From: Segatella copri
GTDB taxonomy: Bacteria > Bacteroidota > Bacteroidia > Bacteroidales > Bacteroidaceae
DNA: 64,000 nt
Assembly (NCBI RefSeq): GCF_009494395.1
Contig: NZ_VZCB01000052.1
Location: forward strand, 62,001-126,000
Direction: 5' to 3'
Shown here: positions 4,095 to 8,352 of the stretch, in pieces
Position numbering within the stretch: the stretch's first letter is position 1
How the letters are laid out: every line of letters begins with the position of its first letter
The notes under the pieces: generated by a model
Seen by the model: the letters and a program-made list of their open reading frames with translations, nothing else
The model's database searches: none
Told to the model about the DNA's origin: nothing
Translations under genes and position numbers: made by a program

Positions 4095-4892
4095 TTATGA
4101 TTTCTTGATTTCAATATCTTCCTTCACATGATTTCTAATCTTTGTGAGGAATACCTTCATGCGTTTGGCATCCTTATGATCGATGATATCAATCAATTCA
4201 GCGAGCTCCTCGCGAATCTGTGCTACCTGACCACTAGTATATGGGTTGAAGAGAATTTCCTGCAACAGATAATCATCCTCGTTCAACACCCCTTTGGCAA
4301 TCTGCATGTGACGCTTGAAGGTTGTACCAGGTGCATCCTGATGTTTCATAACCGCAGCAAATGCGAAAGTACTTACAAAAGGAATACTCAACGAATAAGC
4401 CACCGTCTGGTCATGCTCATCAAAAGTATATTCATGAAGACTCAATCCCAACTTCTGATACAGATCCTTAAAGAAGATTTTACCCATATAGTAACCCTCT
4501 TTGATAATAACAGCATTCTCTTCAGAAAGCTGATTCAAATTGGCGAAAGTAGGACCAAACATCGGGTGCGTACTCACAAATCGGAAACCACTCTTTTCAT
4601 AGAATTCCTGCAAACCAGTCTTTACAGATGCAATATCCGAAATGATACAGTCGTGAGAGAGATGTGGCAACACCTCTTCAAAGGCAGAAAGAGTGTATCT
4701 TACCGTCACAGCATTGATGACAAGCTCAGGACGGAACATCTCTATCTCCTCCATTTTAGTAAAGCGGTAGCAGTTATATGTGAAACGCAGACGCTTGGCA
4801 TCCTTCTCGAAAACTGCCACCTCGTGATCGAAGCTGAGCAGGTCGATGAAGAAACTTCCCATCTTTCCTGCTCCCATGATTAATATTCTCAT
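4095..4892 (-). CDS. tyrA: Prephenate dehydrogenase (TyrA)
   Basis: Oxidatively decarboxylates prephenate to 4-hydroxyphenylpyruvate for tyrosine synthesis. 265 residues: an N-terminal Rossmann domain beginning MRILIMGAGKMGS, then the helical dimerisation domain, with the conserved substrate-site STHPMFGPTFAN. The start at 4892 places the nucleotide-binding strand at the N terminus; a longer frame to 4940 adds only residues encoded by an intergenic repeat. Last gene of the operon pheA, aminotransferase, DAHP synthase/chorismate mutase, tyrA, which covers the branch from chorismate to Phe and Tyr. Confidence 0.9.
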   Translation of the reverse strand: MRILIMGAGKMGSFFIDLLSFDHEVAVFEKDAKRLRFTYNCYRFTKMEEIEMFRPELVINAVTVRYTLSAFEEVLPHLSHDCIISDIASVKTGLQEFYEKSGFRFVSTHPMFGPTFANLNQLSEENAVIIKEGYYMGKIFFKDLYQKLGLSLHEYTFDEHDQTVAYSLSIPFVSTFAFAAVMKHQDAPGTTFKRHMQIAKGVLNEDDYLLQEILFNPYTSGQVAQIREELAELIDIIDHKDAKRMKVFLTKIRNHVKEDIEIKKS

Positions 4893-4899
4893 AATATTT

Positions 4900-4943
4900 A
4901 AGTGAAGAACGAAGAGTGAAGAACGAAGTTCACTCTTCACTTA
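4900..4943. repeat. Dispersed intergenic repeat (AGTGAAGAACGAAG family), copy 1
   Basis: Alternating AGTGAAGA/GAACGAAG units with an inner perfect inverted repeat AGAGTGAA/TTCACTCT (4913-4920/4929-4936). A related sequence in opposite orientation occurs at 47909-47942. It fills the spacer between the DAHP synthase and tyrA genes. Confidence 0.7.
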
Positions 4944-4945
4944 AT

Positions 4946-6013
4946 TTACTTCTGATTCAAAATTTCCAACTGCTGACGAACACTCTCTTCGTGAATGTGC
5001 TCAAAAATCTGAGCAGCAAACTCAGGGCTCATGCCACAGAGCGAAGCCTGAGCACCACGCTTGTCAAGAATCTCGTTATAACGGTTGGTCTGAACGATAG
5101 TCATATTATGCTCCTTCTTGTAAGTACCAATCTCACGGCATACACGCATACGCTTAGCCAAGAGATCCATCAGCTGATTGTCGAGTTCATCAATCTGACC
5201 ACGCAACTGATGCAGACCTTCTGTTGAATAATGCTCATCACGTACTACGAGAAGACTCAGGATGTAATCCAGGATTTCTGGAGTAACCTGCTGCTTAGCA
5301 TCGCTCCAGGCATCATCAGGACTGCAATGGCTCTCTACGATAAGACCATCAAAACCTAAGTCCATAGCCTGCTGGCAAAGAGGAGCAATCAAATCGCGAC
5401 GACCACCGATATGGCTAGGATCACAGATGATAGGCAACTGAGGCAGGCGACGGTGCAATTCAATAGGAATCTGCCACATTGGAAGATTGCGATAGATTTT
5501 CTTATCGAAACTTGAGAAACCACGGTGGATAGCACCAAGCTTCTTGATACCAGCCTGATTAATACGCTGAAGAGCACCAATCCAAAGTTCGAGGTCTGGG
5601 TTTACAGGATTCTTTACCAATACCGGAACGTCCACACCCTTCAAGCTATCAGCAAGAGCCTGCATGGCAAATGGGTTGGCGGATGTACGTGCACCTACCC
5701 AGAGAATATCGATTCCATATTTCAAGGCGAGCTCTACATGCTCAGGAGTAGCCACCTCGGTAGCAGTGAGCATACCAGTCTCTTCCTTTACCTGCTTCAT
5801 CCAAGGTAAAGCAACCTCGCCATTTCCCTCGAAACCTCCTGGTTTGGTACGTGGCTTCCAAACACCTGCGCGGAACATGTGGCAACCCTTAGCTGCCAAC
5901 TGTTTTGCGGTAGTCATCACTTGCTCTTCTGTCTCTGCAGAGCATGGACCTGCAATGATACAAGGGCGTTCCTGGTCACTAGGAAAATTCAATGGTTCTA
6001 ATTCTAATTCCAT
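4946..6013 (-). CDS. Bifunctional DAHP synthase / chorismate mutase
   Basis: 355 residues joining two activities. The N-terminal domain (about 10-260) is a 3-deoxy-D-arabino-heptulosonate 7-phosphate synthase of the AroA-beta/KdsA-like type, with CIIAGPCSAET, RAGVWKPRTKPGGFEG and CDPSHIGG. The C-terminal domain (about 265-350) is an AroQ-type chorismate mutase (LRGQIDELDNQLMDLLAKRM). The fusion couples the first shikimate step to the first step of the Phe/Tyr branch and in such fusions commonly allows prephenate feedback control. It sits between the aminotransferase and tyrA genes in one operon. Confidence 0.93.
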   Translation of the reverse strand: MELELEPLNFPSDQERPCIIAGPCSAETEEQVMTTAKQLAAKGCHMFRAGVWKPRTKPGGFEGNGEVALPWMKQVKEETGMLTATEVATPEHVELALKYGIDILWVGARTSANPFAMQALADSLKGVDVPVLVKNPVNPDLELWIGALQRINQAGIKKLGAIHRGFSSFDKKIYRNLPMWQIPIELHRRLPQLPIICDPSHIGGRRDLIAPLCQQAMDLGFDGLIVESHCSPDDAWSDAKQQVTPEILDYILSLLVVRDEHYSTEGLHQLRGQIDELDNQLMDLLAKRMRVCREIGTYKKEHNMTIVQTNRYNEILDKRGAQASLCGMSPEFAAQIFEHIHEESVRQQLEILNQK

Positions 6014-6033: not shown

Positions 6034-7203
6034 TTATGATTCAAATACTTTTTTTATTCTTTCCAATGCCTCCTTCATTTTCTCATCCTTGGCACAGAGG
6101 CTGATACGGATATATCGCTTGCCATTACTTCCGAAGATAAATCCTGGTGTGATAAACACACGAGCCTCATGGAGAATCTTCTCAGTGAGATCTTCTACCT
6201 CTGTGTACTTCTCGGGTATCTTACCCCAGAGGAACATTCCCACCTGATTAGGATCGAACTTGCAATCGAGCACCTTCATGATTTCTTCTGCAATATCACG
6301 GCGACGGCGATAATTAGCAATATTATTCTCACGATGCCACTCATCAGTATTATTGAGCATAGCTTCAGCTGCAGCAAGTTGGATACCACGGAAGGATCCG
6401 TTATCGATATTGCTCTTCACTTTCAGAATCCAAGAAATAAATGTCTTATTGCTTGAAATCATCGCCACACGCCAGCCTGGCATGTTGTGGCTCTTGCTCA
6501 GGGAATTGAACTCGATGCAGCAGTCCTTGGCTCCCGGCACCTGCATGATGCTCATTGGGTGCTCGTTGAGGATGAGCGAATATGGGTTGTCGTTCACCAC
6601 CACGATGTTGTGCTTCTGGGCGAATGCCACCAGCTTTTCGTAGGTTTCGCGCTTCGCCACACCGCCTGTCGGCATGTTAGGATAGTTGGTCCACATCAGC
6701 TTTACGTGGCTCAGGTCCATCTTCTCCAGGGCATCGAAATCGGGCTGCCACCCATTGTCCTCACGCAGATCATAATAAGTAATCTTGGTTCCAAGAATCT
6801 TGTTGATGGCTGTATAGGTTGGATAACCAGGATTAGGAATGAGTACCTCATCACCAGGATTGCAGAATGCAAGCGTTACGTGCAGAATACCCTCTTTGCT
6901 ACCGATAAGCGGCTGGATTTCCGTAGCCCAGTCAAGGTCTACATCATACCAACGCTTATAAAATCCAGCCATAGCCTTACGCAATTCCGGTATGCCCACT
7001 GTAGGCTGATAACCATGTGCGTTAGGATTATTGGCTACCTCGCAGAGCTTATCGATAGTCTGCTTAGAAGGCGGCATGTCTGGACTTCCAATGGCAAGGC
7101 TGATAATGTCCATGCCCTCGGCATTTAACTTAGCCACTTCCTTCAGCTTGCGACTGAAGTAGTATTCCTGTATTTCCGTTACTCTATTGGCTGGTTGTAT
7201 CAT
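6034..7203 (-). CDS. Class I/II PLP aminotransferase (aromatic pathway)
   Basis: 389-residue fold-type I aminotransferase. Visible features are SLAIGSPDMPPS near the N terminus, PNPGYPTY, the MWTNYPNMPTGG region, NDNPYSLI and the PLP-lysine motif SLSKSHNMPGWR, with the substrate arginine in YIRISLCA. Lying between pheA and the DAHP synthase/chorismate mutase gene, it most likely transaminates phenylpyruvate and 4-hydroxyphenylpyruvate, or prephenate; the sequence alone does not settle the substrate. Spacing to both neighbours is short (about 20-50 nt), which fits one transcript. Confidence 0.88.
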   Translation of the reverse strand: MIQPANRVTEIQEYYFSRKLKEVAKLNAEGMDIISLAIGSPDMPPSKQTIDKLCEVANNPNAHGYQPTVGIPELRKAMAGFYKRWYDVDLDWATEIQPLIGSKEGILHVTLAFCNPGDEVLIPNPGYPTYTAINKILGTKITYYDLREDNGWQPDFDALEKMDLSHVKLMWTNYPNMPTGGVAKRETYEKLVAFAQKHNIVVVNDNPYSLILNEHPMSIMQVPGAKDCCIEFNSLSKSHNMPGWRVAMISSNKTFISWILKVKSNIDNGSFRGIQLAAAEAMLNNTDEWHRENNIANYRRRRDIAEEIMKVLDCKFDPNQVGMFLWGKIPEKYTEVEDLTEKILHEARVFITPGFIFGSNGKRYIRISLCAKDEKMKEALERIKKVFES

Positions 7204-7253: not shown

Positions 7254-8087
7254 CTATTCCTTCTCCTCGTATTCACCAAGCACCTTGATTTCCTTGACCA
7301 GCGGTGTGATGGCATCAATACTTTGGCGATAACGTGTCAAATTATCAAAGGTAAGATCCACATAGAAGAGATATTCCCATTCATGTCCGATATTCGGCAA
7401 CGACTGAATCTTTGTCAGATTGATGTCATAGAAACTAAGAATGGTGAGTACCTTGGAGAGCGATCCTTCTGTATGAGGTAAGCTGAAGACGATACTAGCC
7501 TTGTTTGCTTTCTCGATAGGGCGAAGCAGAGCCGCCTTCTGCGGATTACAGACCACCAGAAACCGGGTATAATTGTGCGGATTATCGTGGATTTCTTCCT
7601 GCAATACCTTCATGCCATACATGTGGGCAGCATAGGCAGAACAGATAGCAGCCCATCCATGCACCTTATGCTGAGCTATATAAGCTGCAGAACCAGCAGT
7701 ATCTTCTGCTTCCACAGCTTTCAAGTCCGGATGATTGGCAAGAAACTTACCGCACTGCATCAAAGCCACAGGATGAGAATGAACTTCCTGGAGGGAACTC
7801 CAGTCATCATCAGGCAAGCAGCAGATGCTATGCTCTATATGAAGTTTATGTTCTCCCACAACAGTCGTACCGCTCTCCCGCAACAACTCATAGTTGTGAA
7901 GCAAACTTCCCGCAATCGTATTCTCTATGGCACAGATACCAACCACGGTTGGATCGCGCTTGATATTCTCAAACACCCCTTCGAAGGTGGCGCAACATAT
8001 CAGCTCTATCTGCTCCCCCTCGAAATACTGATGGGCAGCGATGTCGTGGAAAGATCCCAACTCTCCTTGTATTGCTATTCTCTTCAT
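7254..8087 (-). CDS. pheA: Prephenate dehydratase (PheA)
   Basis: Converts prephenate to phenylpyruvate. 277 residues: a periplasmic-binding-protein-like catalytic domain (about 1-180) beginning MKRIAIQGELGSFHDIAA, with the dehydratase signature around EDTAGSAAYIA, then an ACT domain (about 195-270) containing HTEGSLSKVLTILSFYDINLTKIQSLP, the usual site for feedback inhibition by phenylalanine. First gene of the four-gene operon. Its 5' leader carries a Phe/Tyr-rich peptide and an intrinsic terminator (8136-8286), which indicates control by ribosome-mediated attenuation. Confidence 0.93.
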   Translation of the reverse strand: MKRIAIQGELGSFHDIAAHQYFEGEQIELICCATFEGVFENIKRDPTVVGICAIENTIAGSLLHNYELLRESGTTVVGEHKLHIEHSICCLPDDDWSSLQEVHSHPVALMQCGKFLANHPDLKAVEAEDTAGSAAYIAQHKVHGWAAICSAYAAHMYGMKVLQEEIHDNPHNYTRFLVVCNPQKAALLRPIEKANKASIVFSLPHTEGSLSKVLTILSFYDINLTKIQSLPNIGHEWEYLFYVDLTFDNLTRYRQSIDAITPLVKEIKVLGEYEEKE

Positions 8088-8135
8088 TGCCTTGTTTCTT
8101 ATCTCTAACCCAATGTTTACTTAAGAACGTTTACG

Positions 8136-8171
8136 AAAAACGGTCCAACTCTGTATAGAGCGGGACCGTTT
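8136..8171 (-). terminator. Attenuator terminator in the pheA leader
   Basis: On the minus strand AAACGGTCC (8171-8163) pairs perfectly with GGACCGTTT (8146-8138), with an inner CTCT/AGAG stem in the loop and a run of five T ending at 8136. It lies between the leader peptide stop and the pheA start, so it would end transcription before the operon. A rival pairing (8227-8221 with 8165-8159) disrupts it. Confidence 0.8.
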
Positions 8172-8208
8172 CGATGATTTCAAAGAATCTAATATCCTAA
8201 GTTGAAAT

Positions 8209-8286
8209 TTACACGCAACTTCCCGCTTTACAATCGCTTGCAAAGTAAAAGTAATAGCTAAAAAAGTATGCGTTCAACTTCTTCAT
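8209..8286 (-). CDS. Phe/Tyr attenuation leader peptide
   Basis: A 25-codon ORF starting at 8286 and ending TAA at 8209. Residues 7-15 read YFFSYYFYF, eight of nine being Phe or Tyr (four each). Just after these codons the mRNA can fold into a perfect 8-bp hairpin (8245-8238 with 8233-8226, GCGA loop). The ORF begins about 25 nt after the predicted transcription start and is followed by the attenuator hairpin. This is the layout of a translation-coupled attenuator in which scarcity of charged tRNA-Phe or tRNA-Tyr stalls the ribosome and lets the downstream operon be transcribed. Confidence 0.82.
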   Translation of the reverse strand: MKKLNAYFFSYYFYFASDCKAGSCV

Positions 8287-8320
8287 TGTCTTATTATTTT
8301 AATTGTTAATATTACGACTG

Positions 8321-8352
8321 CAAAAGTAACACTTTTATCTGATACCACCAAA
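8321..8352 (-). promoter_or_regulatory. Promoter of the pheA leader and operon
   Basis: Perfect match to the Bacteroidota promoter: TTTG (8349-8352), 20-nt spacer, TACTTTTG (8321-8328) on the minus strand. It places the transcription start a short distance upstream of the leader peptide. Confidence 0.8.

Follow-up and report, generated by a model that had tools for sequence, protein, structure and literature searches.

In Segatella copri, pheA is preceded by a short open reading frame (ORF) crowded with phenylalanine and tyrosine codons and by a hairpin with a run of T, an arrangement that raises the question of whether the supply of these two amino acids decides how often transcription enters the genes behind it. 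The locus lies on the minus strand of a 64,000-nucleotide stretch of contig NZ_VZCB01000052.1 (hereafter, the window, whose own numbering is used throughout). A first-pass annotation, made from the letters alone, had read the region as a translation-coupled attenuator. Considering its anatomy, its upkeep among relatives and a folding model, we regard it as very probably a ribosome-mediated (leader-peptide) transcription attenuator that senses Phe and Tyr and controls the Phe/Tyr operon.

Anatomy of the leader region and its operon

The promoter, the leader ORF with its Phe/Tyr run, the terminator and the rival pairing between AGCGGGA and TCCCGCT were all recovered where the first-pass annotation had placed them (Table 1). 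The promoter call uses the consensus TAnnTTTG, which we take to mark TACTTTTG as a promoter box; 20 nt separate this box from the upstream TTTG. A scan for Escherichia coli-type sigma-70 promoters, whose reach does not extend to the TAnnTTTG type, returned a different site at 8324–8296 (9/12), with shuffled sequences averaging 1.6 sites. The region from 8130 to 8320 folds with a z-score of −3.57, and none of 200 shuffles was equally stable. The pairing between the leader arm and the terminator reaches −17.9 kcal/mol (p about 0.02), and 48 nt lie between the terminator and pheA. A simple terminator scan of the window called no site at the leader terminator, presumably because the mismatch between the outer and inner stems interrupts the helix that it seeks.

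The genes for PheA, an aminotransferase, a DAHP synthase fused to chorismate mutase and prephenate dehydrogenase stand in a row and constitute a route to both Phe and Tyr. Their Pfam identities agree with the earlier proposal that the mixed codons of the leader fit an operon making both amino acids.

Table 1. Features of the leader region and of the operon behind it in the window
Feature	Coordinates	Strand	Details
Presumed Bacteroidota-type promoter	8321..8352	−	TTTG 8352-8349 and TACTTTTG (TAnnTTTG) 8328-8321
Leader peptide ORF, 25 codons, MKKLNAYFFSYYFYFASDCKAGSCV	8209..8286	−	Stop TAA 8211-8209
Putative sensing codons 7-15	8242..8268	−	Phe/Tyr at 7-9 and 11-15 (8/9)
Predicted antiterminator 5′ arm AGCGGGA, within leader ORF	8221..8227	−	Pairing, folding model
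Small hairpin AAGTTG 8221-8216 / CAACTT 8204-8199	8199..8221	−	6 bp, 11-nt loop; not universal
Predicted antiterminator 3′ arm TCCCGCT	8159..8165	−	Overlaps terminator 5′ half
Intrinsic terminator	8136..8171	−	9-bp stem 8171-8163 / 8146-8138, inner 5-bp stem, T run 8140-8136
pheA, prephenate dehydratase	7254..8087	−	PF00800
Aminotransferase class I/II	6034..7203	−	PF00155
DAHP synthase fused to chorismate mutase	4946..6013	−	PF00793 and PF01817
Prephenate dehydrogenase, tyrosine branch	4095..4940	−	PF02153

Conservation of the leader ORF

Beyond the genus, four sets of pheA loci were compared. The order set comprises 83 loci from 111 genomes with a match, the window's own included, and fell to 82 when L080 (85 bases) was dropped. 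Among the matches listed, 20 loci from other orders of the class and 20 from other classes of the same phylum were picked for spread from 45 and 126 genomes, respectively. The last set, drawn from records with titles, is weighted towards Bacteroides-like species because it holds the best 80 of 587 relatives; 78 loci were left after L198 and L264 were dropped for upstream sequence that was too short. L031 and L112 were left out of the analysis. A leader was called where an ORF with at least 7 Phe/Tyr in 10 residues lay no more than 330 nt 5′ of pheA, and the shuffles were of the dinucleotide-keeping kind.

A Phe/Tyr leader ORF is present in 27/27 loci of the genus, 68/82 of the order, 14/20 of the class and 1/20 of the other classes; on the attenuator reading, such control of the Phe/Tyr operon would be widespread in one order and present in other orders of the class. 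The same threshold was reached by 0/1350 shuffles for the genus, 0.3% of 4100 for the order, 0.2% of 1000 for the class and 0/1000 for the other classes. Among 15 other residue pairs held to it, the best in the order was F+L with 20/82 loci, and the best in the genus gave 2/27. Of the 78 titled-record loci, 76 carry the leader and 73 show pairing at p≤0.05; the bearers include Bacteroides fragilis S82, B. xylanisolvens XB1A and Phocaeicola vulgatus ATCC 8482. Leader, arm and terminator occur together in all 27 loci of the genus, where the script called the terminator in 26 and that of L008 was recognized by eye.

L151 (G299, from another class of the phylum) is the sole one of the 20 out-of-class loci in which a Phe/Tyr leader is combined with significant pairing; its PheA starts like the class type, and it may possibly have been acquired by horizontal transfer.

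The leaders also have their own codon usage. Across leaders L001–L027, TTT accounts for 88 of 103 Phe codons, whereas TTC accounts for 218 of 288 in their pheA genes; for Tyr, TAC makes up 95/130 in these leaders vs 106/235 in the genes. TTT again leads in the order and class leaders (421/567), but there TAT exceeds TAC (213 vs 158).

Pairing between leader and terminator among relatives

The pairing test started from leaders rich in Phe, Tyr or Trp (at least 6 in 10 residues). For each, the best hairpin followed by a T tract was taken as the terminator, the T tract being required by construction, and its 5′ half was matched for the best duplex with the RNA of at most 60 nt that follows the last Phe/Tyr/Trp codon; each locus was compared with 100 shuffles. 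The pairing was significant (p≤0.05) in 26/27 genus, 64/82 order, 16/20 class and 1/20 other-class loci. The remaining loci of the order set divide into 8 without an F/Y/W-rich ORF at 6/10, 2 without a terminator and 8 with a terminator above p 0.05.

Measured from the first nucleotide of the last Phe/Tyr/Trp codon, the median start of the core of the leader arm is 12.5 nt in the genus, 14 nt in the order and 11.5 nt in the class; in shuffled sequences, the 10–90% range of this start spans 5–43 nt. A translating ribosome should cover RNA to about 12 nt past the first base of the A-site codon. The arm, therefore, starts approximately where a ribosome stalled on the last sensing codon would end.

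Each arm is also matched to its own terminator. When terminator arms were swapped among 88 order and class loci, mean pairing fell from −16.6 kcal/mol with the locus's own partner to −11.0 with foreign ones. The own partner ranked in the best 5% for 45/88 loci and at the top for 13/88, the latter being few because a CGGG core is common to many arms. Within the genus, a swap costs little (−21.5 to −19.2 kcal/mol), since the arms are almost identical. Across the order, the helix is retained with changed letters: AGCGGGA/TCCCGCT in the window becomes GGCAGGA/TCCTGCC in L030, AAGGTGGGAT/ATCCCACCTT in L077 and GGGGCT/AGCCCC in L102.

The covarying stems that the first-pass annotation had proposed to look for are, thus, seen as arms that change together across the order, whereas covariation within the genus is modest. 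In the genus alignment, 80.3% of cells in the antiterminator helix are paired and 10 cells have changed on both sides, values reached by 0/500 shuffles in either case; the number of pairs changed on two sides (38/500 shuffles), of further pair types (132/500) and the covariation score (127/500) did not rise above shuffles, because the helix core is invariant there. Two loci separate the RNA from the peptide. The tail of the leader has shifted to another frame in L027 with the arm nucleotides intact, and in L028 the leader stop codon precedes the arm, which suggests that the arm is conserved as RNA and not as peptide.

The small hairpin after the sensing codons, also noted in the first pass, is present in the window, but it is not a fixed element of the switch, since 68.9% of its cells are paired in the genus and one group lacks it. 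It was, therefore, rejected as a conserved trp-type 1:2 hairpin; where present, it could nest inside the antiterminator.

Proposed mechanism and ribosome-position folding model

RNA polymerase would initiate about 30 nt 5′ of the leader ORF, with a ribosome trailing it. A shortage of charged Phe-tRNA or Tyr-tRNA would make the ribosome stall at one of the eight Phe/Tyr codons, and AGCGGGA, just past the stalled ribosome, would be free to pair with TCCCGCT as it emerges. This pairing would consume the 5′ half of the terminator, and the polymerase would continue into pheA. When both amino acids are plentiful, the ribosome would reach the stop codon and mask AGCGGGA, the terminator would form and transcription would end near 8136. 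Such a layout would be simpler than that of trp, in that the ribosome at the stop codon would itself cover the antiterminator arm by direct occlusion. This minimal design could offer a clean test of transcription–translation coupling in bacteria with unusual ribosome binding sites.

In the folding model, RNA was masked to 12 nt past the first base of the A-site codon, and only those modules were used whose pairing reached p≤0.05 in this calculation. With the ribosome at the last Phe/Tyr codon, the terminator 5′ arm is predicted to be sequestered with a mean probability of 0.78 (genus), 0.73 (order), 0.65 (class) and 0.80 (titled records), compared with 0.15, 0.14, 0.10 and 0.18, respectively, when the ribosome is at the stop codon. 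Sequestration was higher at the stall than at the stop in 25/25 genus, 77/79 order, 16/16 class and 75/75 titled-record modules (193/195 overall).

For the window, the first-pass proposal that the position of the ribosome chooses between read-through and termination agrees with the model of nascent RNA, but does not extend to equilibrium. In nascent RNA, the modelled sequestration of the 5′ arm is 0.60–0.69 at Phe/Tyr codons 7–15 (0.67 at the last Phe codon), 0.02–0.26 at codons 18–23 (0.02–0.10 at 21–23) and 0.35–0.36 from codon 24 to the stop, where other RNA sequesters it. Once the complete terminator has been transcribed, its helix is favoured at equilibrium (0.95–0.96) at each ribosome position scanned; therefore, the antiterminator would have to win kinetically, by forming first during transcription. 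In L002, the model gives a clean equilibrium switch (0.04 vs 0.95).

The equilibrium result bears on an alternative in which the leader ORF governs translation or stability of the operon mRNA, in a uORF-type or Rho-dependent manner, rather than intrinsic termination. Leader peptides in general can control translation or mRNA stability, and a terminator that wins in the window at all ribosome positions would be in keeping with such a role. Against this stands the pairing itself: the arm's target is the 5′ half of the terminator hairpin, and the duplex is stronger than those formed by shuffles or with foreign partners. We regard this alternative as very unlikely. Ribosome-mediated attenuation is supported across the order by both the conserved F/Y ORFs and the maintained pairing, the features by which the first-pass annotation had proposed to test it.

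Linkage of the element to the operon

A search of 60 genomes found PheA in 39, including 27 of the 36 from the same genus (the window's own among them). A covariance model was built from the genus element, arm and terminator both included, and the best 62 first-look candidates per genome were scored. It gave exactly one match in each of the 27 pheA-bearing genomes of the genus, always immediately 5′ of pheA, and the same search did not find the element in 8 of the 9 genus genomes without pheA. As built from the genus, the model gave no matches among more distant relatives in the order. An exact pattern search detected the element in 51 of 150 genus genomes, always as a single copy.

One genome separates the leader from pheA. 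In G029, where no PheA was found, the leader MLNYVYASFYYFYLYFTNTCEAEVCVP lies directly 5′ of the aminotransferase and DAHP synthase/chorismate mutase genes (L273, 3100–3650, G029:C62), which were identified by likeness to the window genes, without a Pfam search. A tie to pheA only was, accordingly, rejected, because in L273 the leader is followed by the next operon genes with no intervening pheA. By its position, the element in G029 goes with the operon.

Lying between upstream dihydroorotate dehydrogenase/TPR-like genes and pheA, the terminator could also be a plain intrinsic one that ends a transcription unit upstream, in which case the short ORF and its pairing would be coincidental. However, the upstream gene and the terminator are separated by a promoter of the local type, whose TAnnTTTG (−7) box occurs 5′ of the leader in 24/26 genus, 45/59 order and 8/16 class modules, against 8.4–9.2% of shuffles. 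Besides, the F/Y ORF, the arm distance and the pairing are all conserved far beyond shuffles, and the element is present in a single copy per carrying genome, at the same operon in the 28 genomes checked. A chance association of this kind is, in our estimation, extremely improbable, and the attenuator remains the preferred reading.

Probable tandem attenuators in relatives

In 16 of the 82 order loci, belonging to ten families, two modules with separate terminators, both with p≤0.1, were detected 5′ of pheA (L035, L050, L051, L052, L065, L067, L073, L076, L077, L084, L089, L090, L098, L102, L108 and L109); L259 is likewise tandem, one of the 78 titled-record loci. The second ORF starts 6–30 nt after the first terminator in 15 of the 16 order loci, and in L084 the second ORF, taken at its longest, begins before the first terminator ends. 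In 31 of 32 comparisons, an arm paired more strongly with its own partner than with that of the other module (means of −16.5 vs −9.5 kcal/mol). The first modules of L051, L065, L073 and L089 are weaker.

No TAnnTTTG box was found in the gaps between tandem modules, which are also too short for a full promoter. Therefore, the second module is probably reached mainly by read-through of the first. The absence of the box proves little by itself, because a box 5′ of the first ORF was found in only 7 of the 16 loci, and a promoter overlapping the first module is possible as an alternative route.

A division of labour, with one Phe and one Tyr module, was considered and found no support in the summed Phe/Tyr codons, which number 90/65 in first modules and 94/67 in second modules. 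Judging from these sequences, it is reasonably likely that part of the order carries two complete Phe/Tyr attenuators stacked in series, with poorly exchangeable pairings, which would act as two ribosome checks on the same amino acids. If so, serial modules would multiply two read-through fractions and sharpen the response, and the tandem copies in relatives permit a direct test of such sharpening.

Leaders of other amino acid operons

A crude scan covered the regions 5′ of hisG, trpE and ilvD in those of 12 genomes that had a match, and was confined to these named genes, whether or not they come first in their operons. Outside the genus, clear His-, Trp- and Val-rich leaders were seen 5′ of hisG in G037, of trpE in G039 and of ilvD in both. 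They comprise His-rich MKLYTSHHGHHHFLQ, Trp-rich MQLFSNIWWWQ... and Val-rich ...VVVVV... leaders (L154, L160, L176 and L181). The two genomes represent two other families of the order, and their leaders suggest that several amino acid operons may be attenuated there. Within the genus, no obvious leaders were seen 5′ of the three named genes.

Comparison with known systems

In Firmicutes, riboswitches and T-boxes control amino acid genes, which speaks for considering direct sensing of a small molecule or of uncharged tRNA here as well. Searching the whole window against Rfam at gathering score gave zero matches, with RF01859, RF01692 and the T-box families included. At E-values up to 5, ten pheA loci gave 28 weak matches, several of them to amino acid leader families and none to T-box or riboswitch families; L001 and L002 had none at all. 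What is conserved, moreover, is an F/Y reading frame and one helix of varying sequence, and direct sensing by a riboswitch or T-box appears highly improbable.

The element resembles the enterobacterial attenuators of pheA (RF01859, Phe_leader) and trp, the classic cases of the mechanism: in both, a leader peptide is rich in codons for the product of the operon, and an antiterminator and a terminator exclude each other. As in RF01859, the first gene is pheA. The RF01859 gathering score of 55 bits was not reached in the ten loci, the best of which was L109 (34.1 bits). Unlike the enterobacterial attenuators, the element described here mixes Phe and Tyr codons, has no conserved 1:2 hairpin and places the arm close to the leader stop, where the ribosome would cover it directly.

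Bacteroid-trp (RF01692) is associated with trp operons and a leader peptide. Its discoverers list it among RNAs of Bacteroidetes with a probable cis-regulatory role (PMC2864571). Genome G002 has a match of 43.5 bits (gathering score 49) on the same contig and strand as trpE, about 4.7 kb 5′ of it. With the same gathering score, it was not found in G000, where the best 68 of 476 first-look candidates were scored, and it is absent from the Rfam matches of the ten pheA loci at E-values up to 5. It belongs to another operon and has another sequence than the element in the window.

A comparative study of amino acid attenuators from 2004 reportedly extended them to Bacteroidetes. The first-pass statement that ribosome-mediated attenuation is rarely described in Bacteroidota needs qualifying in view of Bacteroid-trp and of Flavobacterium psychrophilum, for which strong clues for leader-peptide attenuation 5′ of amino acid operons have been reported (PMC9723704). 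The same source describes a structured 5′ element ahead of pheA that is conserved in Flavobacteriaceae and has no Rfam match; that element belongs to a different order of the class, and the available portion of the source gives no mechanism, codons or tandem copies for it (PMC9723704). In Bacteroides thetaiotaomicron, short ORFs resembling leader peptides were noted in long 5′ UTRs, with pheA unnamed in the main text (PMC7366714), and a 2013 survey considered that amino acid attenuators may originate in gamma-proteobacteria (PMC3766115). Our search of the literature, as far as the accessible text of the sources goes, found no published account of this pheA element in Bacteroidales.

The tandem modules of relatives can be set beside the mgt leader, whose two ORFs respond to different signals; the two tandem modules are about equal in Phe/Tyr content, and the window has a single module. 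In Salmonella mgtCBR, two short ORFs within one mRNA leader have been anticipated to control transcription (PMC3641672). The type of mechanism is a known one, and leader-peptide attenuation had been suggested earlier in the phylum; what appears to be new is the Phe/Tyr pheA element described here.
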